64,000 nucleotides of DNA from a virus. Of this stretch, positions 111-28,068 are shown piece by piece. The position numbers and the translations under genes are program-made. The notes below the pieces were generated by a model. The model was not told where the DNA came from, did not search any database, and was given only the letters and a program-made list of their open reading frames with translations. The stretch is from the IMG/VR virus record IMGVR_UViG_3300033571_009591, positions 20,216 to 84,215 of that record, one strand, 5' to 3'. Position 1 is the stretch's first letter. Each line of letters starts with the position of its first letter.

Positions 111-126
111 TAGCAAAAAGTAAAAA
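111..126 (+). repeat. R1 repeat, copy 1
   Basis: Exact TAGCAAAAAGTAAAAA. Its last A is the first base of the ATG at 126, and no purine-rich ribosome site lies between. Confidence 0.9.
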
Positions 127-1034
127 TGTCTGAAACGGTTCCATACGGCGGCAAGGAAGAGGAAGACCCAAGTCTTTCCCTACCTGACATTTCCATCCCC
201 TATGACTTGCGGCCAGACCTTTCCGACCTCGGAATGATTGAGCATGAGCGCGGCGTCTGTGAAGATACCTACGAAAACCGCGCCGCTCTCAGAAGAGCAC
301 ATTTAAATTGGGACCCCGTCTATGATCAGATGGGTGCGCCAACGGGCTTGATAGTGGCACGGTCAGAAGAAGCGATGAAAGAACGGCGAGTGATGTCGTT
401 GGCGGAAAAGCGTCCGCTTCTCCTGGACCCAACTAGCAACAACTCAGATTATTTAACGGGCCTCGACCTGATGCTTGAAGATTCAGCGGTGAAGGTAACG
501 CCACCTTGGGTTATCGGCGCGACTAAGGCTTGGCTTGAGGAACAGCGTAACGGCGGCCCGAAGAGTCCACGGCGTGCCCCTGCTAGTCTACCACACCGTT
601 GTCGAATTGTCAAGACGGACGGTATCCGCTGCATGCTCTGGACATCGGGACGGGTTAAAGATGACGGCTTGTGCCGCGTCCATCTACGAACAACTAGACG
701 GCCTGGAGCTGACATCGAGCGAGCGCGAGCGAAGCTGGTTCAGTCCGCCCCATACGCGGTTGATGTTTTGGAAGACATTATGGAGAACGGCCAGAGCGAA
801 CCCGCTCGCCTCAAAGCCGCTACAGAAATCCTTGACCGTGCTGGTGTGAGAGGCGGCGTGGAGATGGACATAGGTGTTGATGTCCAAGTTCGCTCAGCCG
901 CTGAGATTGTCAACGAAAGATTACAACGGCTTGCCCTAGGAGCAATTCACGCAGCGGCTAGGTTGCCAGATGCCCTAGTTGTTGATGCCGACCCTGTAAT
1001 TGAAGATTCAACTACTACCGAGGAGATAGCATGA
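126..1034 (+). CDS. Putative terminase small subunit with a Cys/His cluster
   Basis: A protein of 302 residues. Residues about 155-185 hold a probable zinc site (HRC from C159, then C-x3-W and CRVHL). The segment after it, with the motifs ARAKLVQSAPYAVDVLEDI and LKAATEILDRAGVRGG, resembles the helical DNA-binding part of phage terminase small subunits, which recognise packaging sites for the large subunit. The Cys cluster is familiar from actinophage proteins of this type. The start at 126 is the first in-frame ATG after the stem-loop and overlaps R1. The stop overlaps the next ATG (ATGA). Base composition is richer in GC than most small genes downstream. No large terminase follows, so the call rests on the C-terminal pattern only. 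Confidence 0.55.
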   Translation: MSETVPYGGKEEEDPSLSLPDISIPYDLRPDLSDLGMIEHERGVCEDTYENRAALRRAHLNWDPVYDQMGAPTGLIVARSEEAMKERRVMSLAEKRPLLLDPTSNNSDYLTGLDLMLEDSAVKVTPPWVIGATKAWLEEQRNGGPKSPRRAPASLPHRCRIVKTDGIRCMLWTSGRVKDDGLCRVHLRTTRRPGADIERARAKLVQSAPYAVDVLEDIMENGQSEPARLKAATEILDRAGVRGGVEMDIGVDVQVRSAAEIVNERLQRLALGAIHAAARLPDALVVDADPVIEDSTTTEEIA

Positions 1035-1201
1035 CTACGGACAACAATATCCAACTAATGACAGCGGAAGTAGAAAGACTTACCAATGCCATCAAACTAA
1101 GCAAGAACCGTGAAGAACATATACAACTGACAACGGAAGCAAATGAAGCAGCCTCAATACTGTCAGCGCTTATAGAGCACTCTCAAATTGGAAAAGAATA
1201 A
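1031..1201 (+). CDS. Small helical protein, unknown
   Basis: A protein of 56 residues, translationally coupled to the terminase-like gene through an ATGA overlap. It is predicted to be almost entirely helical (motif TAEVERLTNAIKLSK) with coiled-coil-like spacing of hydrophobic residues. The coupling suggests a partner of the upstream product. No family recognised. Confidence 0.6.
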   Translation: MTTDNNIQLMTAEVERLTNAIKLSKNREEHIQLTTEANEAASILSALIEHSQIGKE

Positions 1202-1213
1202 AACAAACGCCAA

Positions 1214-1309
1214 ATGAAAAAAGAACTAAAGGATTGTTTCTGGTGCGGCGAGACTTATGGAGCCGACACAAAGAACTGTCCCAACTGCGCAACAAAGACG
1301 GACAGCTGA
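1214..1309 (+). CDS. 31-residue zinc-ribbon mini-protein
   Basis: MKKELKDCFWCGETYG followed by NCPNCATK gives two CxxC knuckles, enough for one zinc ion. It lies 12 bases after the preceding stop. Phages encode many such mini-proteins, often to bind host factors. Function unknown. The short length limits confidence, but the paired CxxC motifs are unlikely by chance. Confidence 0.5.
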   Translation: MKKELKDCFWCGETYGADTKNCPNCATKTDS

Positions 1310-1328
1310 GCTAGCGGCCAGAGTTCCT

Positions 1329-1343
1329 GAGTTGTTTCTAGTT
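1329..1343 (+). repeat. R2 motif, single copy (variant)
   Basis: GAGTTGTTTCTAGTT, one base from the R2 reverse-complement form. No R1 partner lies within 60 bases. Confidence 0.55.
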
Positions 1344-1490
1344 GAACGGGCATCACAGCTTTCTGCAGTAGATTATTGTTCATAATGTATTACGGTTAGT
1401 ACAACCTTAGAATTAACCCTATACACAACGGCCTGCCTAATGGACGCCTGATTTGCATCAACGGCCTGACGGATGTACTCTGCGATTCTT

Positions 1491-1620
1491 GCTAGATGAC
1501 GGTCAACATAGAGGTTTCTGGGTTAATGATTTTCCCTTGTGATCTATGAAGGACGGTCATCACGGAGTTCTAGGTCGGAACCGCCACTTTCTCTCCTAGT
1601 CGTACCTGCCGTCATCTAGC
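1491..1620. ncRNA. Candidate structured element closed by a perfect 12-bp inverted repeat
   Basis: GCTAGATGACGG at 1491-1502 is the exact reverse complement of CCGTCATCTAGC at 1609-1620. The enclosed 106 bases include further partial complementarity. There is no reading frame and no obvious promoter. It could be a folded RNA, a recombination or packaging site, or a protein-binding cruciform. Confidence 0.4.
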
Positions 1621-1668
1621 TCCTTTTAAAATTAACGGCGTGCCCAGAGCTCAGCGGCCCGCCCACAT

Positions 1669-1680
1669 CCAAACAACTTC
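1669..1680 (-). repeat. R2 motif, single copy
   Basis: CCAAACAACTTC, 48 bases before the R2 arm of composite element 1. Confidence 0.55.
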
Positions 1681-1727
1681 TTGAAGCCGACAGCGATCCA
1701 CTGGAGGTGGGACGCCAGGTATCACTT

Positions 1728-1834
1728 CCAAACAACTTCTTTTAAAACGGTAGCTACCGCAGCTGATTTAGCAAAAAGTAAAAACGGCTTGCAGCTGTAA
1801 GCGGCCCGCCAGGAACCGCGAGTTGTTTGTAGTT
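1728..1834 (+). repeat. Composite element 1 (R2-R1-R2)
   Basis: R2 core CCAAACAACTTC at 1728-1739, exact R1 at 1769-1784, and GAGTTGTTTGTAGTT at 1820-1834. The R1-to-distal-R2 gap is 35 bases and holds a small hairpin (GCTT...AAGC around CAGCTG). Here the two R2 arms are inverted relative to each other. Confidence 0.75.
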
Positions 1835-1917
1835 TCATATGGCGGCCAGACAAACCTCCGCCTACACCTCCTCCACCTCCACCTGCAACAAAAAATTTAA
1901 CGGCGTGCTAGACTCCG

Positions 1918-1939
1918 CTTTGCGACTTCAGTCGCAAAG
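1918..1939. repeat. Perfect 10-bp hairpin
   Basis: CTTTGCGACT and AGTCGCAAAG are separated by only TC. No T-tract follows on either strand, so this is not an ordinary terminator. Confidence 0.6.
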
Positions 1940-1941
1940 TG

Positions 1942-2006
1942 AACTACAGACAACTTAACAACTTTGGATAGCGGCCTGGTAGCTGCACGGTTGCAAAAAG
2001 TAAAAG
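1942..2006 (+). repeat. Composite element 1b (degenerate R2 and R1)
   Basis: The R2 variant AACTACAGACAACTT at 1942-1956 and the R1 variant TTGCAAAAAGTAAAAG at 1991-2006 lie 34 bases apart, the same spacing as in intact elements. Confidence 0.55.
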
Positions 2007-2017
2007 CGGCCTGGTAG
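1970..2017. repeat. 13-bp direct repeat flanking an R1 variant
   Basis: AGCGGCCTGGTAG occurs at 1970-1982 and again at 2005-2017, bracketing the R1 variant at 1991-2006. It resembles a short duplication around an inserted unit. Confidence 0.5.
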
Positions 2018-2047
2018 AAGCGCCCGATATATAACGGTGTGTCTTCG

Positions 2048-2076
2048 TTGACAGTAAGCCAACGGTGCCTTAAAGT
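2048..2076 (+). promoter_or_regulatory. Sigma70-type promoter
   Basis: TTGACA 2048-2053, 17-base spacer, TAAAGT 2071-2076. The expected start of transcription is at about 2083, on the first ATG of the next frame. Confidence 0.45.
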
Positions 2077-2083
2077 AGTGGGC

Positions 2084-2302
2084 ATGCTAGTGGAGTTGTA
2101 TGTACTCAGCCGTGTAGTCAAAGCCAGGAAAGCGCGACAAGCATTAGCGGATGCTGAAGAGTACGAAGACGATGACGGATATCGCTATCCTGCCTACTTC
2201 CACTGTCGACGGTGTAAGAACCAGATGGACAAGATGCGCATCGAAGAACAACTTCAGGGATGGAAGAGGACTGGTGACGGTGGAGAAGAAATTCTCGATT
2301 GA
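2084..2302 (+). CDS. Small protein with one CxxC knuckle, unknown
   Basis: From ATG 2084 the frame encodes 72 residues with an acidic middle (EEYEDDDGYRY) and YFHCRRCKNQMDK. A longer version would use GTG 2039, but the promoter at 2048 makes 2084 more likely and near-leaderless. It overlaps the following frame, which carries the next two CxxC knuckles. Either two overlapping genes or a frameshifted three-knuckle protein is possible. Confidence 0.4.
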   Translation: MLVELYVLSRVVKARKARQALADAEEYEDDDGYRYPAYFHCRRCKNQMDKMRIEEQLQGWKRTGDGGEEILD

Positions 2303-2477
2303 TGCAAGAGGAGTCCCATCGCCGGTCTGCCCCAATTGCGGATGCATGCTCTTAAGAATTACAGTTCAGTTCGAATTAGATAATTATGAAATTTCTGGAT
2401 ACCTATTAGATGACGCTGAGTGTTCGTCATGCGGATGCCTCATTACCGCCCCCACTCCCATCGACCACATTAGTTAG
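2274..2477 (+). CDS. Zinc-ribbon protein, unknown
   Basis: GTG 2274 follows an AGAGGA ribosome site and gives 67 residues with SPVCPNCGCMLL and AECSSCGCLI, a two-knuckle zinc ribbon. The overlap with the preceding gene (29 bases, +1 frame) would allow coupling or frameshifting. The ATG at 2151 in the same frame lies inside the upstream gene and has no ribosome site. Confidence 0.45.
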   Translation: MTVEKKFSIDARGVPSPVCPNCGCMLLRITVQFELDNYEISGYLLDDAECSSCGCLITAPTPIDHIS

Positions 2478-3621: not shown

Positions 3622-3723
3622 GAAGTTGTTTGTAGTTATGCAGTGATCGGATGCATTTAGCAAAAAGTAAAAAACGGCCTGGATACCTGGATGCTGTCGA
3701 ACAACGTTGAGTTGTTTGTAGTT
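3622..3723 (+). repeat. Composite element 2 (R2-R1-R2)
   Basis: GAAGTTGTTTGTAGTT 3622-3637, exact R1 3658-3673, GAGTTGTTTGTAGTT 3709-3723. The gaps are 20 and 35 bases and all three motifs point the same way. Confidence 0.8.
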
Positions 3724-3818: not shown

Positions 3819-3968
3819 ATGAACAAGAAAGACGCACTCAACGGACTCCTTCGCATGAAGGGACGCTTTGTGCTGAACCAAAGTCCGAAGGTCTTTGCGG
3901 ACAAGAGGACAAAGCGAAACCGCACGCGCTCTGACAAGAAGCGCCGTGCCCTAGATGAACAGGAATAG
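3819..3968 (+). CDS. Small Lys/Arg-rich protein, leaderless
   Basis: A protein of 49 residues, very basic (KRTKRNRTRSDKKRR), with no ribosome site but a promoter ending 7 bases upstream. A nucleic-acid-binding role is plausible but not shown. Its TAG stop is the first three bases of an R1 copy whose last base begins the next gene. Confidence 0.55.
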   Translation: MNKKDALNGLLRMKGRFVLNQSPKVFADKRTKRNRTRSDKKRRALDEQE

Positions 3969-3981
3969 GAAAAAGTAAAAA
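3966..3981 (+). repeat. R1 repeat joining a stop and a start
   Basis: TAGGAAAAAGTAAAAA (C-to-G at position 4). TAG is the stop of the gene at 3819 and the terminal A begins the ATG at 3981. Confidence 0.85.
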
Positions 3982-4189: not shown

Positions 4190-4205
4190 TAGGAAAAAGT
4201 AAAAA
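4190..4205 (+). repeat. R1 repeat before a start codon
   Basis: TAGGAAAAAGTAAAAA, the same G variant as the copy at 3966, again ending on the A of an ATG (4205). Confidence 0.85.
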
Positions 4206-4468
4206 TGGAAAAATACCAAATAATCGAAGAACGCTGGAACGCTGGGTACTACGCTCAACTTGAAGGCGCAACAATCCTAAAGTTTTTAGGAACTGAACCT
4301 GAGTTTGCGAGTCGAGGATTTCCAAGATTTTCCGCAAAACTAAAAAATGGTGAAGTAGTCGAACTTGTTTTATCTCAAGATGAAGAAGGTAATGGTGGGG
4401 GATTTATGTTCGGTCTTCCTGACTACACACTTCCCGAGTTTCGTACTGACTTGACAGAATCAAAATAA
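4205..4468 (+). CDS. Small protein, unknown
   Basis: A protein of 87 residues (MEKYQIIEERWNAGYYAQLE...), mixed beta and acidic. The next promoter's -35 (4451) lies within its last codons, showing how tightly cassettes are packed. Confidence 0.65.
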   Translation: MEKYQIIEERWNAGYYAQLEGATILKFLGTEPEFASRGFPRFSAKLKNGEVVELVLSQDEEGNGGGFMFGLPDYTLPEFRTDLTESK

Positions 4469-5515: not shown

Positions 5516-6184
5516 ATGCCAAACTGGGTTTTTAACGACCTTCACATTGAGGGAAGCAAAGAGGCTATACAAAAAGTAAAAGCGCAACTCAATGCGCCAT
5601 ACACTAGGAACACCACAGAGGGAGAAGAAGTTATTTACAGTAATCCTGTAATCTCTTTCTTAAACATAGTTCGACCACCCGAAGACAAGATGGACGAATA
5701 CGAAGGCGTACATGGTTACAAAGATGGCGAGAAGCAAGGGCAAGGCGAGTTCAACTGGTACAACTTTAATAATCGCGAGTGGGGAACAAAGTGGGATGTC
5801 GCAGTTCATGATGGCGAGAAGCACTCAGACACTCAACTCAACCAAGAAGAAGAAACCAAACTTCACTACTACTTCCAAACTGCGTGGTCACCACCACTTC
5901 CAGTAATCGAAGCCCTCTCACTTCAGCACCCTGAACTAGAAATAACTTTGAGGTATGAAGAAGAGCAGGGCTGGGGTGGAGAAATCTACTGGGATAAAAC
6001 TGGCTCGACTATTGTCGAAGAGTGGGACATACCTGACTCTCACGCAGATTATGTTAAGAAAGATGATGTTGATGGCTGTGTCTGCTCTAGAGAAGAAGAT
6101 ACAGATGAGTGGTATGACGATTGCCCCGGCAAAAAAACTATCATTGAACTTCACGCCAAGCGTGATGTGGTTCAACTCAAATAA
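5516..6184 (+). CDS. Api92-like (DUF1281-type) protein
   Basis: A protein of 222 residues. The N-terminus MPNWVFNDLHIEG and the later AWSPPLPVIEALS and GWGGEIYWDKTG blocks match the pattern of Api92-like ferredoxin-fold phage and plasmid proteins (MxNWxxNxLxIxG). The role of this family is not known. A Cys-containing C-terminal part (CVCSREEDT) is unusual. Six bases after the previous gene, under the promoter at 5322. Confidence 0.7.
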   Translation: MPNWVFNDLHIEGSKEAIQKVKAQLNAPYTRNTTEGEEVIYSNPVISFLNIVRPPEDKMDEYEGVHGYKDGEKQGQGEFNWYNFNNREWGTKWDVAVHDGEKHSDTQLNQEEETKLHYYFQTAWSPPLPVIEALSLQHPELEITLRYEEEQGWGGEIYWDKTGSTIVEEWDIPDSHADYVKKDDVDGCVCSREEDTDEWYDDCPGKKTIIELHAKRDVVQLK

Positions 6185-6191: not shown

Positions 6192-6207
6192 TAGCAAAAA
6201 GTAAAAA
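6192..6207 (+). repeat. R1 repeat
   Basis: Exact copy starting 8 bases after the stop of the Api92-like gene, directly followed by a promoter. Confidence 0.85.
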
Positions 6208-7511: not shown

Positions 7512-8567
7512 ATGGAAAATCTTAAAGAGCGTTTCGACGCACTCACACCAAATCTAACACCAACACTATGGGATACCATTGTGGATGTTGCCTCACAAGG
7601 AGTCAATGAAAACGCAGGGCTAATCCTTAATGGAAGTGTTCTTCCACAAGGTCGTTATGTTGAACGCGCACTTGGCGCAGACAGAGCCCCACGCAAATCT
7701 AAGATGGCTATGGCAGGTGGCATTGTGGAAAATCTCGAAGGCGAAGAGCAATACCTTCGACCAAATGGCACACCATACTTCTCTCGTTTATGGGGAGAGC
7801 ATAGAGATGTAGAAACTTTGCGCAAAGCAAGAAGCGCAACTGCGATTTCTAATTCAACAGGTAAAGGCTCTGCTATGTATCCTTTACTTTATGGCGCACC
7901 CGGTTGCGGAAAAACTGCCCTTATTGAAGCAGCGTATGGAACTAATGTTCGTACTTTGCTAGGTAATGGAGATGTTGAAGCAGCAGACATGATTGGTTCT
8001 TATGTTCAAACTCCAAGTGGAAACTTTGAGTGGGTAGATGGTGACCTAGTGAAGGCTGCGGAAAATGGCGAAGTTTATTTCATTGACGAAATTGGTTTGA
8101 TTGACCCTAAGGTTCTCGCACTCGTGTATGGACTTATGGATGGTCGTCGTGAATTAACTATCACTACAAATCCTGAGCGAGGAACTATCAAGGCTCATCC
8201 TGATTTCTTCGTAGTAGCAGCGACAAATCCAAACGCACCCGGCGTTCGTTTATCTGAGGCGTTGCTATCTCGTTTCACACTTCAAGCAGAAATGACAACA
8301 GATTGGAATCTCGCTCGCAAATTAGGAGTACCAACAATTGTTGTAACTGCTGCTCAGAATCTTTATCGTAAGCAGATGAACAAGGAAGGCATTTCTTGGT
8401 CACCACAAATGCGCGAACTTCTAGCGTTTCGTGACATAGCAGAAACCTTTGGAACTGCGTTCGCACTTTCAAATCTAATCGCTGCTGCTCCACAGAACGA
8501 CAGAGCAAGTGTGGCTGATGTTCTTTCCCGTGCCTTTGGGGAAGAGATGAAGCCAGCCAAAATCTAA
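7512..8567 (+). CDS. MoxR-type AAA+ ATPase
   Basis: A protein of 351 residues. Walker A GAPGCGKTALIEA (G128-, K134), Walker B VYFIDEIG (D192, E193), and a sensor/arginine region AATNPNAPGVRLSEALLSRF around 237-256, as in MoxR/CobS-type ATPases. Such ATPases act with a VWA-domain partner to remodel or insert metals into target proteins, and the VWA partner is the next gene. About 110 residues precede the P-loop, including a charged Lys-rich stretch. CobS-like ATPases occur in other phages. The target here is unknown. Between this gene and its partner lie a pseudoknot-like structure and a second promoter. Confidence 0.85.
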   Translation: MENLKERFDALTPNLTPTLWDTIVDVASQGVNENAGLILNGSVLPQGRYVERALGADRAPRKSKMAMAGGIVENLEGEEQYLRPNGTPYFSRLWGEHRDVETLRKARSATAISNSTGKGSAMYPLLYGAPGCGKTALIEAAYGTNVRTLLGNGDVEAADMIGSYVQTPSGNFEWVDGDLVKAAENGEVYFIDEIGLIDPKVLALVYGLMDGRRELTITTNPERGTIKAHPDFFVVAATNPNAPGVRLSEALLSRFTLQAEMTTDWNLARKLGVPTIVVTAAQNLYRKQMNKEGISWSPQMRELLAFRDIAETFGTAFALSNLIAAAPQNDRASVADVLSRAFGEEMKPAKI

Positions 8568-8643
8568 GGACACCCCCGTCCTAGATTGAGGTGAGGGGTC
8601 GAGGGTTGAGCGTGGTTCTTGGGTGTCCTACGCTCCCCTCGAC
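8567..8643 (+). ncRNA. Predicted H-type pseudoknot between MoxR and VWA genes
   Basis: AGGACACCC 8567-8575 pairs with GGGTGTCCT 8621-8629, and GTCGAGGG 8598-8605 pairs with CCCTCGAC 8636-8643. The arms interleave (a-b-a'-b'), which is a pseudoknot rather than nested hairpins. No T-tract follows. It begins on the last base of the MoxR stop codon and could stabilise or terminate that transcript. Confidence 0.5.
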
Positions 8644-8650
8644 ACTTCCA

Positions 8651-8695
8651 AAATGGATTTGACAATAGAAAATTAAAATGAAATAATTGCTTTAT
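8651..8695 (+). promoter_or_regulatory. Sigma70-type promoter inside a duplicated 45-bp block
   Basis: TTGACA 8659-8664, 17 bases, AATAAT 8682-8687. The surrounding 45 bases are identical to 12717-12761. Confidence 0.7.
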
Positions 8696-8738
8696 TAGGT
8701 CGGAAGCCTAGTAACTAAAAAGAAAAGGGGTAAGAAAA

Positions 8739-10517
8739 ATGCGTCACTTAAAAACAGGTGAAACAAGAGCAGAGGCAACTCCAACAGAGTGGCTAAGAGC
8801 AGGACGCACGATTGGCGAACTAGCCAACAAATGGTCTTTGCGTAACGACATTGTTGCGTATGTAGGGCCGGGAGCAGGTGGGCAAGCCCCTGCGTGTTTC
8901 GCTCCAACAACTGCCGAGGTTGAAGTTAATGTTGATATTGCTTTCGGATTTGGCGTAAAGCCCGAAGAGGTCGAGCGACTTAACGAACGCAAAGTTCAAT
9001 ACGAATTCCCAAAGGGAACTGGCGCAATTATGCACGAGGCATTTCATGCTCGCTACTCTCGCTGGTCTATGCCTGAGGCATACAAAGAATTAAAGTCTGA
9101 CGAATATCAAGCACTTATCCTATTAGAGGAAAGTCGTATCGAGTTTCAGGGATTGAAGTCAATGCCTACTGCTCGTCCTTTCCTTCGCTCATGCGCTATG
9201 GAAATTGTAATTGGTGATGTTAAAGAAGATATGGAAAAACAAACTCCAACAAAATCACTAACAAATTTAATTGGTTTAGTTCACGCAAGAATTGACGCAG
9301 GTATTCTTGAAGAGCATGAAGTCGCAGTAATAATGGAATTAGTTGAAAACCAAATTCCAGCAGATGTAGTAACTCAACTACGAACAATTGCTCTATCTGC
9401 TCAAGCGCACGAACTTCACGAAGACGCTACTGAACTTTATCCACTAGCGATTGAGTGGGCGCGTATTGTTCGTGAACTCGCTAAAGAGCGTGGAGATGAA
9501 GAAGGTAATAATCCAGTAGGCGAAGCCTTGAAGAAACTTATGAGTGATGTTCTCGACGCTATGGAAGAAGCAAGTGATGAAATCTCTGCGACTAACTTTG
9601 GCGAACTAGCAGATCAAGAACAATCTGAGGATTGGAAAGATGAAGTCAAAGGCAAAGCAGAGGACGCGAAAGAGAAAGAAGAAAATCGCGAAATCGCAAA
9701 AGATGTATTTAGTAAATCTACTGGGGCAGGTTCAACAAAAAGCAGTAGTAGATTAGTAGATACTCGCAGCCCTAACGCAGACGAGTTAGTCGCAGCAGTA
9801 ACTATTGGTCAATGGTTAGAGAAGGCAAAGTATCGCGAGCGCGACGAACACGAGGTTGCCAGTATTCTCCCACCCGGACGACTTCGCACACGAGCCATTG
9901 TTCAAAACGCAGCATTGAAATCTCGTGGAGTGAACCAGCAAGTCGAGGCGTTTCGTCGCACAGTTCGTAAGCACACAGACGACCCAACACTTCATGTCGG
10001 AGTTATGGTGGACATTTCAGGTTCAATGGGTTCAGCCATGCAACCAATGGCAACAACTGCGTGGGTTATGTCTGAGGCAGTAAATCGTATTCAAGGTGAG
10101 TGCGCTATGGTCTATTTCGGAAATGATGTATTCCCTACTCTCAAAGCAGGGCAACGACTTAAAGAAGTTTCTATTTACTCTGCCCCTGATGGCACAGAGA
10201 AATTTGCTAAAGCGTTCTCGGCACTTGATGGCGCGTTGAACTTACTTCACGGAAATGGCGCACGATTGCTCGTCATAGTTTCAGATGGTCAATACACTTC
10301 GGAAGAAACTCGGAAGGCTGAGGAAATTGTTGCGAAGTGTAAAGAGGCTGGCGTAGCAATTCTGTGGTTGCCATTTGATAATGGACAGGGCGCGGATAGA
10401 TTGGCTGCCAACTATGCGGAAGTAATCCGAGAGATTACAAACCCAGCACAGGCTGCCGAAACTATTGGTAGAGCAGCAGAGCGTGTCATGACAAGGATTG
10501 GGCAACGAGTGGCATAA
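8739..10517 (+). CDS. VWA-domain protein with HExxH metallopeptidase-like motif
   Basis: A protein of 592 residues. IMHEAFHARYSRW gives HExxH (H99, E100, H103), as in the putative metallopeptidase domain found N-terminal to VWA-like domains (DUF2201 type). An acidic, Lys/Glu-rich middle (about 245-345) is followed by a VWA domain with the metal-binding DISGS motif (D425, S427, S429) and a later IVSDGQYTSEET. The layout also resembles CobT. It should be the substrate-recruiting partner of the MoxR ATPase at 7512, activated by metal at the VWA site. Own promoter and AAAGGGGTAAGAAAA site. A strong double hairpin follows it. Confidence 0.8.
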   Translation: MRHLKTGETRAEATPTEWLRAGRTIGELANKWSLRNDIVAYVGPGAGGQAPACFAPTTAEVEVNVDIAFGFGVKPEEVERLNERKVQYEFPKGTGAIMHEAFHARYSRWSMPEAYKELKSDEYQALILLEESRIEFQGLKSMPTARPFLRSCAMEIVIGDVKEDMEKQTPTKSLTNLIGLVHARIDAGILEEHEVAVIMELVENQIPADVVTQLRTIALSAQAHELHEDATELYPLAIEWARIVRELAKERGDEEGNNPVGEALKKLMSDVLDAMEEASDEISATNFGELADQEQSEDWKDEVKGKAEDAKEKEENREIAKDVFSKSTGAGSTKSSSRLVDTRSPNADELVAAVTIGQWLEKAKYRERDEHEVASILPPGRLRTRAIVQNAALKSRGVNQQVEAFRRTVRKHTDDPTLHVGVMVDISGSMGSAMQPMATTAWVMSEAVNRIQGECAMVYFGNDVFPTLKAGQRLKEVSIYSAPDGTEKFAKAFSALDGALNLLHGNGARLLVIVSDGQYTSEETRKAEEIVAKCKEAGVAILWLPFDNGQGADRLAANYAEVIREITNPAQAAETIGRAAERVMTRIGQRVA

Positions 10518-10653: not shown

Positions 10654-10669
10654 TAACAAAAAGTAAAAA
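10654..10669 (+). repeat. R1 repeat
   Basis: TAACAAAAAGTAAAAA, directly after stem 2. Confidence 0.8.
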
Positions 10670-11703: not shown

Positions 11704-11719
11704 TAGCAAAAAGTAAAAA
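11704..11719 (+). repeat. R1 repeat
   Basis: Exact copy 15 bases after the preceding stop and 9 bases before the next promoter. Confidence 0.85.
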
Positions 11720-16814: not shown

Positions 16815-16817
16815 AAA
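16802..16817 (+). repeat. R1 repeat overlapping a gene end
   Basis: Exact copy; read in frame it encodes the final Ser-Lys-Lys-stop of the ART-like protein. Confidence 0.9.
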
Positions 16818-17606: not shown

Positions 17607-17949
17607 TCTCACACTTGACATGCTTTCTAATTTAGTTGATGACATTACAAATGGAAGTTTAGATGGTCAGTTGGATTCGATTAGTAAAGCAGTAGAGCAG
17701 AGAAAGAAAGACATTCGTAGTGGAACGACCATTGACGATTTTAGAGTTGGAGATGTTGTGACCATTAACGAGCGTTGCGGAACTAAGTACCTTATTGGAG
17801 AACGAGGCACAGTTGTCGGGATTCGTAGGACTAAGATAACAATTCAGTTTGAGAACCCGAAGGGTAGGTTCGTGCGGAAGAACGCAGATGGAACTACCTA
17901 TTCTTCAGATGTTGTAGTGCCAGTAGAAATTGTTGATAGAAAAAAGTAA
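17599..17949 (+). CDS. Protein with KOW/SH3-like C-terminal domain
   Basis: A protein of 116 residues from ATG 17599. The C-terminal half FRVGDVVTINERCG, GERGTVVGIRRTKITIQFEN has the GD-V ... G--GTV pattern of small SH3/KOW barrels that bind RNA or ribosomal partners. The stop TAA lies within an R1 variant. Confidence 0.6.
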   Translation: MSNLTLDMLSNLVDDITNGSLDGQLDSISKAVEQRKKDIRSGTTIDDFRVGDVVTINERCGTKYLIGERGTVVGIRRTKITIQFENPKGRFVRKNADGTTYSSDVVVPVEIVDRKK

Positions 17950-17952
17950 AAG
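17937..17952 (+). repeat. R1 repeat (variant) at a gene end
   Basis: TAGAAAAAAGTAAAAG, containing the stop codon of the preceding gene. Confidence 0.7.
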
Positions 17953-18203: not shown

Positions 18204-18449
18204 ATGAAGATTGTTGATAAGGATTACCACCCAAATGGCTCAGCCAATCCTTTTGTTGTTGCTATCGTAGATAGTCCTGAAGAAGGGGACACGAAACTAG
18301 TAATAATGTTTGAGGATTATGATTATGTTGCGGTATTATCACTTGACTATCTTGTTCGTGATGAAGACATCTCTGTAAAATTCAATGGACATCACGGGGA
18401 CAAGTACGAAAAACTTCGTAACGATCTCTGGGATGACTTTGCTGGATAG
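18204..18449 (+). CDS. Small acidic protein, probably leaderless
   Basis: A protein of 81 residues. ATTTTATAC lies directly before ATG 18204 and there is no ribosome site. MKIVDKDYHPNGSANPFVVA, acidic beta-rich. Its TAG stop begins an R1 copy. Confidence 0.55.
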   Translation: MKIVDKDYHPNGSANPFVVAIVDSPEEGDTKLVIMFEDYDYVAVLSLDYLVRDEDISVKFNGHHGDKYEKLRNDLWDDFAG

Positions 18450-18462
18450 CAAAAAGTAAAAA
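18447..18462 (+). repeat. R1 repeat supplying a stop codon
   Basis: Exact copy whose TAG ends the 18204 gene; the next gene starts 18 bases downstream. Confidence 0.9.
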
Positions 18463-18479: not shown

Positions 18480-19049
18480 ATGACAACTGTTGCAGCGGTG
18501 CAGGGTGAAGGCTGGGTTGTTGTTGGTTACGACTCTAGAGTCACGGAAAACCAAGAGAAGATATTTACTTTGGCTAAAGACAATGGCAAAGTAGTTAAGA
18601 ATGGAAATTACTTACTAGGCGCGGCCGGCGACATGAGAGCCATCAACTTACTCAGTTATGTCTTTAAGCCACCTGTTATTAATCCAACAACTTATGGCGT
18701 CAGGTTGGATAAGTTTATGACTGCAGTTTTTATTCCTGAACTCAAGAAATGTTTTGAGGAAGCCTCATACTCCAAAGATGGGGAGATGGAGTCCCAAGTG
18801 ATGGTTGTGGTCAATGGGACTATTTACGAGATAGGAAATGACTTTTCGTGGGCACATGATGAGTCAGGTATCTACTCAATAGGTTCGGGTGGCGACTACG
18901 CCATCAGCGCGTTGCTTGCCACATTCGAAACACGCAAGAGAACTATTGGAACTGCGAAGGCACTTGTGCGTCAAGCAATAACTATTGCCTCGAAGTTAGA
19001 CCCAAACACTGCACCGCCCATCTACATACAAGTACAGCACTTCGGTTAA
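18480..19049 (+). CDS. HslV/proteasome-beta-like Ntn-hydrolase
   Basis: A protein of 189 residues starting MTTVAAVQGEGWVVVGYDSR. After Met removal the N-terminal Thr fits the Ntn nucleophile; GYDSR corresponds to the conserved G-A/Y-D-xR loop. NGNYLLGAAGD and YSIGSGGDYAISALLA (about 133-148) match the K/G-xG-D and GSGG-YA motifs of HslV and proteasome beta subunits, and the length is usual for HslV. The enzyme would degrade proteins as an oligomer, normally capped by an unfoldase. No HslU or ARC-type partner is adjacent. GGGGGTGAA precedes the start. Followed by an inverted R1. Confidence 0.7.
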   Translation: MTTVAAVQGEGWVVVGYDSRVTENQEKIFTLAKDNGKVVKNGNYLLGAAGDMRAINLLSYVFKPPVINPTTYGVRLDKFMTAVFIPELKKCFEEASYSKDGEMESQVMVVVNGTIYEIGNDFSWAHDESGIYSIGSGGDYAISALLATFETRKRTIGTAKALVRQAITIASKLDPNTAPPIYIQVQHFG

Positions 19050-19050: not shown

Positions 19051-19114
19051 TTTTTACTTTTTGCTGTTTAGCTCTGCAGCCGGCGTTCACTGGAAGCCAA
19101 CTACAAACAACTTC
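19051..19114 (-). repeat. Composite element 5 (inverted R1, R2)
   Basis: TTTTTACTTTTTGCTG 19051-19066 and AACTACAAACAACTTC 19099-19114, 32 bases apart, beginning two bases after the peptidase gene. In this orientation the T-rich R1 could help terminate rightward transcription. Confidence 0.8.
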
Positions 19115-19324: not shown

Positions 19325-20209
19325 ATGAAAAGACTAATACTAATAGTCGCACTTGTAGCGTCATCGCTAACACCTGCGCATGCTCAACCAACTCAAACTA
19401 TTGCGGTGATTGACTCAGGAGTCAATACTGCGTTATTTAATAATATTGTTACAGAGGTATGTATTCTTGAATACTCCAACTGCGCTAATGGAAAGCCTTT
19501 CATGGAAGGTAAGGGTGCGGCTCATACAGGAGTGACAACTAATGCTGCGCTTAATCATGCGACTGGAATGATATCTATTATCAACAAAGTGAACCCTTCA
19601 GTAAATATTATTCCAATTCGTATTATTGGAATTACTGATAAAGGTAACCCATTTATTTACTCAAACAATGCGGTGAAGTTAGCACTCGACTGGGTTGTTG
19701 CTAACCACGCTAAATACAATATTACTGCGGTATCCGTATCGCAGGGTAAAGTTTTTGCTGGATGTAGAGTCCCTGATGGAACTGCCAATGCGGTAGCAAC
19801 ACTAAAGGCTAACAATGTTGCCGTAATTGGTGCGACAGGTAATGCTAGTAATCGAAAAGAGATGGACTCGATTGCCTGCCTACCTGATGTAATCTCGGTA
19901 GGGGCAACAGACAACCCTGATAAGGGAACTAGCGGAATTGCTTACGACCCTAAGGCAAAGCCATATATTGCTCGATACAGTAATGGTAATGCTCAGACAA
20001 GTTTTTACTTGAACGCTAGATGGTATGTACTTCAGAGTAATGGAACTCAGAAGTTTACAGTCGGAACTTCCAACTCAACTGCCTCACTCGCTGGACTATG
20101 GACGCTGAATAGGAAGTCAAGCGTTGCGGAAACGCAAGCAACTCTCAACTCTTTAGCAACAACTGCGAGTAACGAGTGGCTAACAGGAAAGTATCTTCAG
20201 ATTCCATAA
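19325..20209 (+). CDS. Secreted subtilisin-like serine protease
   Basis: A protein of 294 residues. The signal peptide MKRLILIVALVASSLTPAHA has an A-H-A cleavage site. The catalytic triad of family S8 is visible: Asp in AVIDSGVN (D30), His in NHATGMI (H78, instead of the usual HGTHVAG), oxyanion Asn in IGATGN, and Ser in GTSNSTASLAG (S249). No propeptide is evident between the signal and Asp30. A secreted phage protease could degrade surface proteins, receptors or debris at lysis. Own promoter, GGGAGAAAAGATAT site. Confidence 0.8.
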   Translation: MKRLILIVALVASSLTPAHAQPTQTIAVIDSGVNTALFNNIVTEVCILEYSNCANGKPFMEGKGAAHTGVTTNAALNHATGMISIINKVNPSVNIIPIRIIGITDKGNPFIYSNNAVKLALDWVVANHAKYNITAVSVSQGKVFAGCRVPDGTANAVATLKANNVAVIGATGNASNRKEMDSIACLPDVISVGATDNPDKGTSGIAYDPKAKPYIARYSNGNAQTSFYLNARWYVLQSNGTQKFTVGTSNSTASLAGLWTLNRKSSVAETQATLNSLATTASNEWLTGKYLQIP

Positions 20210-20219
20210 CCTAACCCCT

Positions 20220-20235
20220 TAGGAAAAAGTAAAAA
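20220..20235 (+). repeat. R1 repeat
   Basis: TAGGAAAAAGTAAAAA, 10 bases after the protease stop and just before a terminator. Confidence 0.85.
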
Positions 20236-20241
20236 TAGATG

Positions 20242-20263
20242 CCCCCTCCCCCGAGGGGGTTTT
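20242..20263 (+). terminator. Rho-independent terminator
   Basis: CCCCCTC-CCCC-GAGGGGG followed by TTTTC. Confidence 0.75.
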
Positions 20264-21198: not shown

Positions 21199-21257
21199 TA
21201 GCAAAAAGTAAAAATTCAACAGCTGCGGTTGTCAGCTGCGCAACTGCAAACAACTTC
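21199..21257 (+). repeat. Composite element 6 (R1-R2)
   Basis: Exact R1 21199-21214 and AACTGCAAACAACTTC 21242-21257, 27 bases apart; CAGCTG occurs twice in the gap. Lies between a terminator and the next promoter. Confidence 0.75.
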
Positions 21258-21813: not shown

Positions 21814-21920
21814 CACTACAAACAACTTCGTTCAGATCTAGCTGCGTGCGGTATGTTTTTACTTTTTGCTAAATATCTCTGCATTTTTGAGATGCGTCTG
21901 AGAGAACTACAAACAACTTC
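21814..21920 (-). repeat. Composite element 7 (R2-R1-R2, R1 inverted)
   Basis: CACTACAAACAACTTC 21814-21829, R1 complement 21856-21871, AACTACAAACAACTTC 21905-21920, gaps 26 and 33. The gap after R1 holds ATCTC...GAGAT. The geometry is almost identical to element 4. Confidence 0.8.
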
Positions 21921-22994: not shown

Positions 22995-23147
22995 ATGAAA
23001 TGTTTAACTTGCGGAACTACTGAAGGCATAGTGTATTCAGGCGTAGATGCTTTCTGCCTCGGAGTAGAAACAGAAAAGATTTGCTACTCGTGCGCTAATG
23101 CGGTTGCCTCACAAAAGAGGTTGGAGTCAGCCAATGAAGGTAACTAA
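22995..23147 (+). CDS. Small zinc-ribbon protein
   Basis: A protein of 50 residues after AAAGGGGAATAAAA. MKCLTCGTTEG and KICYSCANAV are paired CxxC motifs. Overlaps the next gene by 14 bases. Confidence 0.65.
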   Translation: MKCLTCGTTEGIVYSGVDAFCLGVETEKICYSCANAVASQKRLESANEGN

Positions 23148-23367
23148 AAAAGGAAAGGCTTTCCTCAAAGAGAGAGAAAGAACTAGCCCACTTCGTGCGG
23201 AGTTTTTACTTAAGTTTGCCTTCATGAGTGACGAACAGTTTTGGAAGTGGTCTGAACTAAAGACAACTGCCGAAGCAAGAGCGTTTATGGAAGCAATACC
23301 AATGCCTCCAATGAGGACAAACAAAATGTTTATCGAACTAGAAAAACAGGAAGGTAGCAAAAAGTAA
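23134..23367 (+). CDS. Small basic protein, unknown
   Basis: A protein of 77 residues from ATG 23134 (GGAG site). Lys-rich N-terminus KVTKKGKAFLKERER, then AEFLLKFAFMSDEQFWKWSE. The last residues Ser-Lys-Lys-stop are encoded by R1. Confidence 0.6.
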   Translation: MKVTKKGKAFLKERERTSPLRAEFLLKFAFMSDEQFWKWSELKTTAEARAFMEAIPMPPMRTNKMFIELEKQEGSKK

Positions 23368-23370
23368 AAA
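23355..23370 (+). repeat. R1 repeat joining a stop and a start
   Basis: Exact copy. The stop codon of the 23134 gene is inside it (23365-23367) and its last base starts ATG 23370. Confidence 0.9.
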
Positions 23371-23519: not shown

Positions 23520-23707
23520 TGGATGACACAACTCAGGTAGTACTACCCGACAACTGCGGGTTTTCATGTCAGTTCGAGTGGATTGAGGTTTCCTCAAACT
23601 TCTTTAATGTTTCTGTCTATACGCCTGCGCTTATCGCTGGCTTGGCTGGGTATTTGATTTACCGAGTTATTAAGAAGAGCAAGAAGAGTCCATTTGAGAA
23701 AAAGTAA
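23519..23707 (+). CDS. Small membrane protein
   Basis: A protein of 62 residues. About 35 extracytoplasmic-type residues with two Cys, then PALIAGLAGYLIYRVI and a Lys-rich end KKSKKSPFEKK, suggesting N-out/C-in. The stop lies in an R1 variant and overlaps the next reading frame. Confidence 0.6.
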   Translation: MDDTTQVVLPDNCGFSCQFEWIEVSSNFFNVSVYTPALIAGLAGYLIYRVIKKSKKSPFEKK

Positions 23708-23888
23708 AAACATAGAGGCAGACGCTTCTAAACTCTATGACTCAGGATTGTCCATAGACAATGTTGCTTTGGAGTTAGATGTTTGCTACCGAACAGCAAG
23801 AAGGGCTATTAAGAACGCTGGCGTCACACTTCGTGACCCCTCTGCCCGCCTGAAAGGGCGTACAAGCCCTAAGAGAAAGAAGGGTTAA
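23694..23888 (+). CDS. Small HTH protein
   Basis: A protein of 64 residues from TTG 23694, the only possible start; no ribosome site, so probably coupled to the preceding gene. ASKLYDSGLSIDNVALELDV, then CYRTARRAIKNAGV, is a clear helix-turn-helix like those of resolvases and sigma-like adaptors, followed by a basic tail. Residues 2-6 (RKSKN) are encoded by an R1 variant. Confidence 0.6.
   Translation: MRKSKNIEADASKLYDSGLSIDNVALELDVCYRTARRAIKNAGVTLRDPSARLKGRTSPKRKKG
23695..23710 (+). repeat. R1 repeat (variant) in overlapping genes
   Basis: TGAGAAAAAGTAAAAA. It includes the stop of one gene and codons 2-6 of the next. Confidence 0.65.
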
Positions 23889-24140: not shown

Positions 24141-24184
24141 TTGCCTTATCAGGGGAACAGCCCCTAAATATCGAAAGGTAAAAA

Positions 24185-24694: not shown

Positions 24695-25291
24695 ATGAAT
24701 ACAGTTCCTAATAAAACTGTCGAACAAATAATCAGCGTAGCCATTGCGGTTGTGTTGGTTTCTTGTTTCTCGAGTTATGTTCAAACTTCGAGCGCAGATG
24801 TAGTAACAAATAAAGTAACGAAGGCTCAACTGGCTGAAGAGATTGCTGTACATGAACAAAAGATTAAAGAACTTCAACTCAAGAGGTTTGCAGAACAACG
24901 AACACCATTTACAGATGAAGAACTAGCCCAGATGCTTTACGCAGTTGGCTTCGAGGGCAAGGCTCTCCGAGTTGCTTGGGCAGTTGTAAAGAAAGAGTCC
25001 AACGGACGACCACTAGCCTTTAATGGCAACACCCGTACTGGCGATAGTTCATACGGTATCTTCCAAATCAACATGATTGGTGGATTAGGCGTAGACCGCC
25101 GAGAAAAGTATGACTTAAAAACAAATAGAGAATTATTCGACCCTGTTGTTAATGCTGAGATTGCGCTTCACATGACGAACGAAGGTGAGAACTGGAGTTC
25201 TTGGAAAGTTGGAAGCGGGTATAATGGTAGAGATCAAGCCCGTTTCTTAGACTGGTACAAGAAATTTCCAGAAGGAGTAAACCTCTCATGA
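24695..25291 (+). CDS. Membrane-anchored lysozyme/transglycosylase (endolysin)
   Basis: A protein of 198 residues from ATG 24695 (AAAGGA site). An N-terminal membrane or signal-anchor segment QIISVAIAVVLVSCFSSYVQ, a helical linker, then an SLT/goose-lysozyme-like domain: AWAVVKKESNGRPLAFNGN with probable catalytic Glu101, and SSYGIFQINM. The C-terminal YNGRDQARFLDWYKKF resembles the end of such domains. It should cut peptidoglycan glycan strands; the anchor suggests export by the host secretion system. ATGA overlap with the next gene. Confidence 0.75.
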   Translation: MNTVPNKTVEQIISVAIAVVLVSCFSSYVQTSSADVVTNKVTKAQLAEEIAVHEQKIKELQLKRFAEQRTPFTDEELAQMLYAVGFEGKALRVAWAVVKKESNGRPLAFNGNTRTGDSSYGIFQINMIGGLGVDRREKYDLKTNRELFDPVVNAEIALHMTNEGENWSSWKVGSGYNGRDQARFLDWYKKFPEGVNLS

Positions 25292-25794
25292 CTGAAGAAG
25301 TAAACCCAATTCAAGGTCAAGTAGTTCCGACACCCGCCGAGTGGGTTGCTGAGCCACGCCATGAAGAACCTGTGGTTCCCGTTGAGGAACCTAAGGTTGA
25401 AGAAGTAGTTGTTGTTGTTGAACCAACACCAGAAGTTGTTGTTGAACCAACGCCGCCAGCTGCCAAAGAGCCAGTAGCAAAAAGTAAAAATGAAGAGCCT
25501 GTTGCAGCGGCAGCTCCAGCTCATGGCTTAGATGAAAAAGTTGTTCATACATCAGCCTTGGTTTTCAAGTCTAATTCTCACAATTCTGTATCAGTTGGTT
25601 TGGTACAAGAACGCTTAGTTGAGATGGGATTTGTCGATGCCAGTTCAGACAAGTACGGATGGCTATGCGAAGGAACAATGAAAGCCCTCGCTGAGTTTGC
25701 TAACATAAGTGTGGAAGAAGTTAATCTCAAGGACGCTTCAGTCATTGAAGCGTTGTTTGCGGGTACACAAGTTAAGGTCATTGACTGTAAGTAA
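25288..25794 (+). CDS. Pro/Glu/Val-rich protein with peptidoglycan-binding-like C-terminus
   Basis: A protein of 168 residues, coupled to the lysozyme by ATGA. Residues 1-80 are a low-complexity Pro/Val/Glu linker (EEPKVEEVVVVVEPTPEVVV) that also reads through an R1 copy as VAKSKN. Residues about 97-135 (SVGLVQERLVEMGF, YGWLCEGTMKALAEFA) fit the peptidoglycan-binding domain type 1 pattern. Probably the wall-binding subunit of a two-part lysin. Confidence 0.6.
   Translation: MTEEVNPIQGQVVPTPAEWVAEPRHEEPVVPVEEPKVEEVVVVVEPTPEVVVEPTPPAAKEPVAKSKNEEPVAAAAPAHGLDEKVVHTSALVFKSNSHNSVSVGLVQERLVEMGFVDASSDKYGWLCEGTMKALAEFANISVEEVNLKDASVIEALFAGTQVKVIDCK
25475..25490 (+). repeat. R1 repeat inside a coding sequence
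   Basis: Exact copy, translated in frame as Val-Ala-Lys-Ser-Lys-Asn within the linker of the 25288 protein. Confidence 0.9.
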
Positions 25795-25808: not shown

Positions 25809-25858
25809 CCAGTCCCTCGTCTAAAATTGAGGGGCTGGGCGCTTTTTACTTTTTGCTA
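25809..25858 (+). terminator. Terminator whose T-tract is an inverted R1
   Basis: CCAGTCCCTC 25809-25818 pairs with GAGGGGCTGG 25829-25838; after GCGC comes the R1 complement TTTTTACTTTTTGCTA (25843-25858). Here R1 supplies the T-tract for rightward termination. Confidence 0.75.
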
Positions 25859-26241: not shown

Positions 26242-26865
26242 TTAGGAAGTTGCCCTGCGGTTAGAGGCTTTGATTTGCGTATAGACACTAGAGCCACCAT
26301 TTGAAGTCTTATACCCATACCGAACAAGTCTGAAGACAAGTCCCGAAGTGGTAACTCCAAGTAACTTACCGAGTCTGTACATAGAAACCCCATGTACTGT
26401 GTGCGCTTCGTTGAGCAAGTAGGAATACTCTTCGGCTTCAGCGCGGTAGCGCGGTGAGTTTGAGCGAACCTTCTCTGCTATTGGCTTGAGTTCTTTGAGC
26501 CTTGCTAGTAGTTCAGCGGGAGGCAAGGCATGAATAGTCAATGAAGACTTAGGCTCATGCTTTGGAACCTCTGGAATTACTAGAGTTGGAGGTACAGGCT
26601 CTGCGGTGTGCTTGCCTATAATAATTCTTACCATCTCATTTGATAGCCCTGCCGATTTAGCAATGCTGACATGTGTCCACCCTGCGTGTACTAGCGCAAT
26701 GATGTAATCATTTCGCAAGTTTTTTAAGTTGCTTTTAGCCAATGCGGTGAAGTTGTTTGTAACCTCTTCAGGTAGTTGAACATTAGCAACCTTGTTCATG
26801 CCTGCGCGTTTGTAGTAGTTTTTACTTTTTGCTAACTGTGTTTCTTCGATTGTCGTTGTTGTCAT
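26242..26865 (-). CDS. Tandem-HTH DNA-binding regulator
   Basis: A protein of 207 residues. First HTH around residues 50-85 (YIIALVHAGWTHVSIAKSAG, LSNEMVRIIIG), a Pro-rich linker, then a second helical domain (LARLKELKPIAEKVR, SMYRLGKLLGVTTSGLVFRL). The layout and both domains resemble the 166-residue protein at 28227, so the two appear paralogous. Residues 10-16 (QLAKSKN) are encoded by an inverted R1 and residues 34-39 overlap an R2. Last gene of a leftward operon; a repressor role is plausible. Confidence 0.6.
   Translation of the reverse strand: MTTTTIEETQLAKSKNYYKRAGMNKVANVQLPEEVTNNFTALAKSNLKNLRNDYIIALVHAGWTHVSIAKSAGLSNEMVRIIIGKHTAEPVPPTLVIPEVPKHEPKSSLTIHALPPAELLARLKELKPIAEKVRSNSPRYRAEAEEYSYLLNEAHTVHGVSMYRLGKLLGVTTSGLVFRLVRYGYKTSNGGSSVYTQIKASNRRATS
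26749..26834 (-). repeat. R2 and inverted R1 inside the HTH gene
   Basis: GAAGTTGTTTGTAACC 26749-26764 and the R1 complement 26819-26834, 54 bases apart, both within coding sequence. Confidence 0.7.
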
Positions 26866-27253: not shown

Positions 27254-27282
27254 AGTTTAGTACTAGTGTTTTCATTTGTCAA
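27254..27282 (-). promoter_or_regulatory. Leftward sigma70-type promoter
   Basis: On the minus strand: TTGACA (27282-27277), 17 bases, TAAACT (27259-27254). It drives 27219 leftward. Confidence 0.7.
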
Positions 27283-27294
27283 ACTATCTTACAT

Positions 27295-27322
27295 AAGAAA
27301 ACCCCCGCATTTCTGCGGGGGC
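27295..27322 (-). terminator. Rho-independent terminator (leftward)
   Basis: CCCCCGCA-GAAA-TGCGGGGG with TTTTCTTA downstream on the minus strand, just after the 27336-27503 gene. Confidence 0.8.
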
Positions 27323-27335
27323 TTGTCTGTGAGTT

Positions 27336-27503
27336 TTAGTTAGTTGCCCAGAAGTCTTCTACTGCGAAGTTCTCGACCTTACTCACCTTGCGGTTTCGCT
27401 TGTTCATCTTGCGGTCTTGCTTGATTGTGTCAATTACGAAAGGTGAAGCGATTAGTAGGACACCTGTGAAGTAAGCGATAAATACTGCTGTATCTGATGA
27501 CAT
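27336..27503 (-). CDS. Small membrane protein
   Basis: A protein of 55 residues from the ATG at 27503, which has CAGGGGAAATAAA before it; the longer frame to 27575 covers the promoter. VFIAYFTGVLLIASPFVIDT is one membrane segment, followed by a basic stretch KQDRKMNKRNRK. Its promoter has a Crp-type site at about -62. Confidence 0.65.
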   Translation of the reverse strand: MSSDTAVFIAYFTGVLLIASPFVIDTIKQDRKMNKRNRKVSKVENFAVEDFWATN

Positions 27504-27547
27504 TTTATTTCCCCTGTTCTGTAAGCACCCCTTGTGCTTATGAGATA

Positions 27548-27575
27548 AGTTTATCAAACTGTAGGCTAGTGTCAA
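27548..27575 (-). promoter_or_regulatory. Leftward sigma70-type promoter
   Basis: On the minus strand: TTGACA (27575-27570), 16 bases, TAAACT (27553-27548). The predicted start is about 27541. Confidence 0.65.
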
Positions 27576-27595
27576 GTATTATCAAGCGTTTTCTT

Positions 27596-27611
27596 TGTGA
27601 TGTCTGTCACA
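27596..27611. promoter_or_regulatory. Crp/GlxR-type operator, class I position
   Basis: TGTGATGTCTGTCACA, perfect TGTGA-N6-TCACA. Its centre is about 62 bases upstream of the predicted start of the leftward promoter, the classic class I activation distance. Confidence 0.7.
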
Positions 27612-27628
27612 CAGATTGCTAGGCGATT

Positions 27629-27674
27629 ACTAGATATCTGACCAATCACGACCAGTTACGACCAGTCATCTAGT
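27629..27674. repeat. Three 10-bp tandem units inside an inverted repeat
   Basis: ACCAATCACG, ACCAGTTACG and ACCAGTCATC follow without gaps at 27641-27670, one helical turn each. ACTAGAT (27629-27635) and ATCTAGT (27668-27674) flank them as inverted copies. Iteron- or operator-like. Confidence 0.6.
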
Positions 27675-27675
27675 A

Positions 27676-27691
27676 GAAGTTGTCTGTAGTT
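27676..27691 (+). repeat. R2 motif (variant)
   Basis: GAAGTTGTCTGTAGTT, one base from consensus, directly after the tandem array. Confidence 0.6.
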
Positions 27692-27723
27692 CATAGACCT
27701 ACTACCTATCAGCCAAGACCTAT

Positions 27724-27960
27724 GTTACTCATTAGTAACCTACTCACTAGTAACTTACTCATCTTTTAGGTTAGTTCTTATATTAGTTTTTAGGTTACTC
27801 CCCAGTAACTTACTTATTTTTTATGTCACTATTTAATAACTTGCCCCCTACTAAATTACCCACTAATAAATTATCTATTAGTAGTCATTTACTTGCCTAC
27901 CCCCACCCACCAGTAGGCTACTCACTAGTAGATATTATTTCTCATAAGTTACTAATGAGT
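27724..27960. repeat. Cluster of TTACT/AGTAA half-sites
   Basis: GTTACTCATTAGTAAC 27724-27739 and GTTACTCCCCAGTAAC 27794-27809 are full inverted pairs; TACTCACTAGTAA and TACTCACTAGTAG occur between and after, with further half-sites up to about 27960. Confidence 0.6.
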
Positions 27961-28052
27961 ATTTTTTATATATTTTTTAAAATTCAATTTTTATCTTTTT
28001 TAGAAAAATTTAAAGTATTTAAATCTTAGTTGGCTATCGAAAAGGTAGAAGT

Positions 28053-28068
28053 CAGCAAAAAGTAAAAT
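28053..28068 (+). repeat. R1 repeat (variant), last copy
   Basis: CAGCAAAAAGTAAAAT. No further copy is seen in the remaining 36 kb. Confidence 0.7.

Follow-up and report, generated by a model that had tools for sequence, protein, structure and literature searches.

A conserved 16-bp repeat dispersed through one gene block of freshwater actinobacterial phages and its possible stoperator-like role

Several arrays of short dispersed sites have been described in phage genomes. The stoperators of cluster A mycobacteriophages (L5, Bxb1, Trixie, TipsytheTRex) comprise more than 20 asymmetric sites of ~13 bp per genome, mostly oriented with transcription and located in short intergenic spaces (PMC6550527, PMC9283540). 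L5-type repressors bind such asymmetric sites as monomers via two DNA-binding domains and stop elongation in one orientation only (PMC9283540), and related cluster A phages have related but distinct stoperators (PMC6550527). In cluster O mycobacteriophages (Corndog), 17-bp repeats are dispersed in more than 30 copies, of which many are intergenic and roughly a third lie within genes; these phages have yielded no stable lysogens, and the repeats have no known function (PMC4351075). The non-structural genes of cluster K mycobacteriophages and of Microbacterium phages of cluster EF carry start-associated sequences (SAS and ESAS), which are short, asymmetric and in part paired with a second motif; nearly all SAS are found 3-7 bp upstream of a start codon (PMC3203893, PMC7302621). 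Here we analyze R1, a 16-mer (TAGCAAAAAGTAAAAA) dispersed through part of a 64,000-nucleotide stretch (the window, bases 20216-84215 of the 84,215-bp virus record IMGVR_UViG_3300033571_009591); no description of this array was found in the literature searched.

Thirty-one sites in the window match R1 with at most 3 mismatches, compared with a mean of 2.16 and a largest count of 6 in 100 dinucleotide-preserving shuffles, an excess over sequence of the same composition that also answers the question of chance raised in the initial annotation of this DNA. All 27 copies listed there, including the five on the minus strand, match at this threshold, although the list missed one exact core at 5571-5581, inside gene 5516-6184. 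With this copy, there are 28 exact matches to the 11-bp core (AAAAAGTAAAA), 23 forward and 5 reversed, all between window positions 115 and 28067 and nowhere else in the 84-kb record, including the 20 kb left of the window. The claim that no copy lies beyond 28.1 kb holds for the exact core, but look-alikes without it are present at 32084, 42472 and 59498; the match at 24169 is weak (3 mismatches). The motif has 12-15 informative positions and is asymmetric, and its consensus (AGCAAAAAGTAAAAA) has no dyad symmetry. In every genome with R1 the array is limited to one block, barring single stray core matches. Chance or A-richness as the origin of R1 is ruled out by the shuffles, and other A-rich 11-mers are not conserved; we conclude that the array is real and selected, and almost certainly functional.

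Small genes make up the block, and many of them have a sigma70-like promoter to themselves: TTGACA-N15-18-TANNNT promoters number 20 in the block, where 0.8 are expected, and 1 in the remaining record. It encodes a MoxR-type ATPase, a VWA protein, a proteasome-like protein and lysis-related genes. Over 74% of its length, the capsid protein shares 72% identity with its counterpart in Actinomycetia phage DSL-LC01, whose 129-kb sequence was assembled from Dishui Lake (PMC10611076), and Microbacterium and Gordonia phages are more distant relatives; the R1 phage is a freshwater actinobacterial phage.

Eleven other IMG/VR contigs carry R1, in about 8-22 copies each, and together with the window's phage they form four clades with ~70% identity between clades. 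Between close relatives the R1 core is 98.5% identical, compared with 86.5% for the flanks and 89.1% for other A-rich 11-mers. The core of reverse copies (n = 14) is 100% conserved, with flanks down to 81%, and coding copies (n = 20) are 97.7% conserved, a pattern that points to a function at the DNA level rather than at the RNA or peptide level. Many sites also hold the same gene position across the four clades. For instance, gene 25288-25794 encodes a peptidoglycan-binding-like protein with 38-62% protein identity outside the closest relative, and yet the DNA word GCAAAAAGTAAAA in its linker is kept in 10/10 genomes, although its codons could vary silently. Judged by this conservation, R1 is an old site under selection, which fits the earlier proposal of a binding site for a phage protein.

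Related lineages carry other words in the same setting. Among 80 loci around the block's ATPase taken from related viral contigs, 19 have R1, which brings the R1 records to 31 when the other R1 genomes are counted, and 40 have GGTAAAAAW; R1 corresponds to a single clade in the ATPase tree (support 100/98). Further loci carry TGCTACTAAG/TGCTATCAAG, CCCCTAAAAAATA, GGGAAATTATWAT or AAATTTCAGT, DSL-LC01 and one relative have the promoter word AAAGATGTTATAAT, and six loci are without a clear word. The motif classes follow the ATPase tree, with 9 changes where the minimum possible is 7, and where near-complete genomes are available (R1, GGTAAAAAW, AAATTTCAGT and TGCTACTAAG classes) the word keeps to one 20-40 kb block, with a few stray single matches elsewhere. 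GGTAAAAAW is often found at R1's place in orthologous genes: the linker of the peptidoglycan-binding protein has the lineage's own word in 10/10 R1 and 7/7 representative GGTAAAAAW phages scored, and occupancy in R1 and GGTAAAAAW phages is 100% and 44% at the stop of gene 18204, 83% and 53% at the start of gene 126, and 82% and 42% at the start of the gene for a helix-turn-helix (HTH) protein. Over 104 gene-feature cells, the positions of R1 and GGTAAAAAW are correlated (r = 0.38, permutation p = 5e-5). The agreement is partial, and other gene positions differ. R1 might instead be a site for a host protein, such as a nucleoid protein of the host or a target of restriction-modification: the hosts are uncultured and could impose a word on their phages, and the phage does encode a DNA methylase. 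We nevertheless give this explanation little probability, as confinement to one block and orientation with genes would not be needed for a host-wide site, and many of the positions persist in relatives that use a different word.

Both words are tied to the direction of genes. In the ATPase-centred loci, R1 is co-directional with genes at 246 of 267 sites (92%) and GGTAAAAAW at 588 of 646 (91%). R1 cores also avoid the interior of genes: in six genomes only 12 of 135 fall within a called gene at more than 15 bp from its ends, compared with 82 expected, so that the statement that R1 marks gene boundaries is mostly correct. R1 often stands between the end of one unit and the promoter or start of the next. 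It is not the promoter of the next gene for most copies, because it ends on the start codon or precedes a separate TTGACA promoter at a varying distance. The direction bias would also be expected of an element acting in RNA or translation, for instance an A-rich leader or an SAS-like site for an RNA-binding protein, and R1 adjoins a start codon at 93 of 372 distinct sites (25%), GGTAAAAAW at 31%, with variants such as TAGGAAAAAGTAAAAATG able to double as a Shine-Dalgarno sequence. Three quarters of the R1 sites are nevertheless away from starts, which rules R1 out as an SAS, the reverse copies keep their core intact, and several conserved copies lie 3′ of a terminator-like hairpin and 5′ of the next promoter; an RNA-level role is therefore unlikely.

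The reading preferred in the initial annotation was a boundary for recombinational exchange of gene cassettes; R1 does lie at gene ends in a gene-rich and variable block, and a small serine recombinase is encoded in most of the longer genomes. By the comparison that the annotation had itself proposed, 22 of 148 gene-content breakpoints lie within 60 bp of R1 compared with 26.4 expected from random intergenic points, the breakpoints being the ends of insertions, deletions or replacements in ten close pairs that are non-independent. R1 positions are moreover kept over ~30% divergence, and the recombinase is also present in DSL-LC01, which is without R1. Cassette exchange is thus largely refuted and, in our estimate, very improbable. 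The recombinase gene itself (record 1691-2359, minus strand, left of the window) encodes a resolvase domain and a partial Recombinase domain in ~220 aa and is conserved in most genomes of the phage family.

The density of R1, about one site per kilobase over the non-structural block, together with its conservation in both orientations, could instead reflect a site that organizes the block for architecture, segregation, replication or packaging. A second motif, R2 (AGTTGTTTGTAG), would suit such a role, as R2 partners lie 40-50 bp from R1 in intergenic R2-R1-R2 composites, with weak conservation between relatives (88.4% vs 83.4% in flanks). This role seems improbable, however, given that R1 is limited to one block rather than genome-wide and is strongly tied to gene direction and gene ends, and that no ParB was found in 13 genomes, many of them fragments, a result on which partition sites are rejected.

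Since direction bias, DNA-level conservation, a word that changes with lineage and restriction to a promoter-rich block fit together, we consider that R1 is, on balance, probably a lineage-specific array of transcription-regulator sites that works like stoperators by analogy. We infer the binding of a protein to R1, the phage origin of that protein and an effect on transcription. In this mechanism a sequence-specific DNA-binding regulator, probably encoded by the phage, would bind R1 and, where small transcription units end or begin, would most likely obstruct or silence the RNA polymerase moving through, and the whole block might thereby be damped or shut off in the fashion of stoperators. 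More tentatively, it is possible that this constitutes a block-wide transcription roadblock in large phages without recognizable lysogeny genes, in which a new regulator repeatedly changed the word and dozens of sites were rewritten at kept positions. If so, one regulatory map would be spelled in different words by different lineages, and stoperator-like control would extend beyond temperate mycobacteriophages, with unrelated proteins, to freshwater actinobacterial phages. Different words at shared positions would offer a natural experiment on the joint change of a regulator and some 20-30 sites, which is normally hard to observe, and in many phage contigs without annotation a dispersed word flags the block of small non-structural genes.

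Several observations weigh against regulation by stoperator-like sites. About 8% of the R1 sites in the ATPase loci are reversed, as are 5 of 28 in the window, and the word class TGCTACTAAG/TGCTATCAAG is without strand bias (59% co-directional). The correlation between R1 and GGTAAAAAW positions takes related phages and genes to be exchangeable. The records searched gave no lysogeny module, which leaves a block-wide silencer without an obvious purpose. Finally, the R1-binding proteins are unproven candidates only, and the family of one of them, a ~207-aa protein with two predicted HTH regions, was not found, or gave weak partial matches, in the GGTAAAAAW genomes searched, and therefore cannot serve all lineages.

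This two-HTH family is a lead. It has one or two members in R1 records G000, G006, G007, G010, G019, G021 and G028, and also occurs in two phages of other word classes; a paralogue of the window's copy lies outside the window (record 7536-8126, minus strand); no match or a weak one was found in two R1 contigs (52 and 103 kb), and none or a weak partial one in DSL-LC01. Within the clade of the window's phage, the opening codons of the two-HTH copy at 26242-26865(-) contain R1. The N-terminal HTH weakly resembles sigma region 4, a fold search with the model (pLDDT 77) gave no significant match, and the Trixie repressor has no detectable homology to the family (hhalign probability 7.5%). A second candidate, a 64-aa HTH protein, is little changed between R1 and GGTAAAAAW phages and is thus rejected as sole determinant, as it leaves the word change unexplained. 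The first gene of the block (record 19959-20246) was considered as an HU-like binder for its lysine-rich tail; it has no HU match in Pfam, and its sequence looks like that of a holin. No homologue of the Trixie repressor was found in 14 records of the phage family (the query recovers itself), and no tyrosine integrase (PF00589) in 16 records, many of them fragments.

With regard to neighboring genes, window 7512-10517 encodes a MoxR-type AAA ATPase and, after it, a VWA (CoxE-like) protein; the pair is conserved across these phages, and neither gene contains R1. The proteasome/HslV-like protein at window 18480-19049 is conserved in all R1 clades and in DSL-LC01. The coordinates of R1, R2 and the candidate binders are collected in Table 1.

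Table 1. Copies of R1, R2 motifs and genes for candidate R1-binding proteins in the window.
Feature	Position	Strand	Remarks
R1	111-126	+	exact, first of block; last base overlapped by ATG of gene 126-1034; same position in clades A, B, D
R1	1769-1784	+	intergenic; R2 motifs either side
R1	1991-2006	+	2 mismatches
R1	3658-3673	+	within R2-R1-R2 composite
R1	3966-3981	+	includes stop TAG of ORF 3819-3968; adjoins ATG of gene 3981
R1	4190-4205	+	adjoins ATG of gene 4205-4468
R1 core copy	5567-5582	+	inside gene 5516-6184; absent from initial annotation
R1	6192-6207	+	between gene end and TTGACA promoter at 6217
R1	10654-10669	+	1 mismatch
R1	11704-11719	+	3′ of gene 11174-11689
R1	12246-12261	+	between ORF 12091-12240 and ATG of 12261
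R1	12646-12661	+	its TAG is stop of ORF 12397-12648
R1	13259-13274	+	2 mismatches
R1	14667-14682	+	directly 3′ of terminator-like hairpin; same place in clades A, C, D
R1	15621-15636	-	reverse; within R2-R1-R2 composite
R1	16802-16817	+	at stop codon of gene 16581-16814
R1	17937-17952	+	2 mismatches; over stop of gene 17599-17949
R1	18447-18462	+	its TAG is stop of gene 18204-18449; at this stop in 10/10 genomes compared
R1	19051-19066	-	reverse; 1 bp past stop of gene 18480-19049
R1	20220-20235	+	between gene end, terminator-like hairpin and promoter 20279
R1	21199-21214	+	between terminator-like hairpin and promoter 21286
R1	21856-21871	-	reverse; within R2-R1-R2 composite
R1	23355-23370	+	spans stop of gene 23134-23367 and ATG of ORF 23370
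R1	23695-23710	+	3 mismatches; over first codons of 64-aa HTH gene 23694-23888
R1	25475-25490	+	in frame, linker of gene 25288-25794; in-frame R1 in this linker in 10/10 R1 genomes compared
R1	25843-25858	-	reverse; intergenic
R1	26819-26834	-	in first codons of two-HTH gene 26242-26865(-)
R1	28053-28068	+	2 mismatches; last of block
R2 motif	3624-3635	+	upstream partner of R1 at 3658
Other R2	684, 1944, 15581, 15673, 19101, 21244, 21816, 21907	-	by motif
Other R2	1330, 1821, 3710, 26751, 27678	+	by motif
HTH protein, 64 aa	23694-23888	+	R1 over its start; second candidate binder, unproven
Two-HTH protein, 207 aa	26242-26865	-	two predicted HTH regions; candidate R1 binder, unproven

A k-mer search for dispersed arrays around this ATPase found none in five cultured distant relatives (Pumpernickel, Zooman, Sixama, Phendrix and GMA2); on a 10-kb stretch of Trixie the same search returned the stoperator-like word GTGAATGTCAAG as its top match, with all eight TGTCAAG on one strand. 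A 60% GC relative (L188) has the word TGCTATCAAGGGA in 27 copies, which resembles the cluster A stoperator end TGTCAAG, possibly by chance. The scan of genome contigs gave one close relative with a different word, the phage-like contig CAJXOD010000018.1 (L267), binned in a freshwater actinobacterial metagenome-assembled genome of Aquiluna, a binning that suggests a host group; its word CAGAAAAAATAACTA has 11 core copies, 10 on one strand. DSL-LC01 (L157:22600-41000 and L239) has ~30 dispersed promoter-like words TCTAAAG[AT]TGTTATAATNGAATC, many with short inverted repeats on both sides, the arms of which seem to covary (GATTC/GAATC, AGATC/GATCT), and often followed 3′ by the ribosome-binding word CGACGAAAGGACA. 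An unusually conserved ribosome-binding word, ACGACGAAAGGA, is repeated in many non-R1 relatives (L172-L193, L201-L204 and DSL-LC01), precedes start codons in DSL-LC01 and resembles the start-associated sequences of other actinophages.

Compared with known systems, the SAS and the T4-type cassettes named as nearest analogues in the initial annotation give way to cluster A stoperators, which are the better analogue: only a quarter of R1 copies adjoin starts, unlike SAS. The promoter array of DSL-LC01 likewise has dozens of copies in the equivalent block of a related genome; unlike R1, its word is a promoter, with a TATAAT box and a ribosome-binding motif after it, and all copies are co-directional. 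Among published arrays from phages that have yielded no lysogens, the cluster O repeats come closest (PMC4351075), but these are inverted with dyad symmetry, in contrast to the asymmetric and mostly co-directional R1. With cluster A stoperators, R1 shares its many asymmetric copies (28 exact cores, compared with 20-40 sites), a prevailing orientation relative to transcription (weaker in the window, at 23/28), a location at gene ends and in short intergenic spaces, and a consensus word that differs between related phages. R1 differs from them in having another sequence, one block only and part of its copies reversed, in words that diverge much more between relatives, and in its carriers, which are large uncultured freshwater phages. 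Cluster A phages are temperate, with an immunity repressor and an integrase or ParABS. Because no Trixie repressor homologue and no tyrosine integrase were found in the records searched, and with ParB likewise not found, we place R1 outside the cluster A family: the array is stoperator-like in anatomy, and not a member of the cluster A system.

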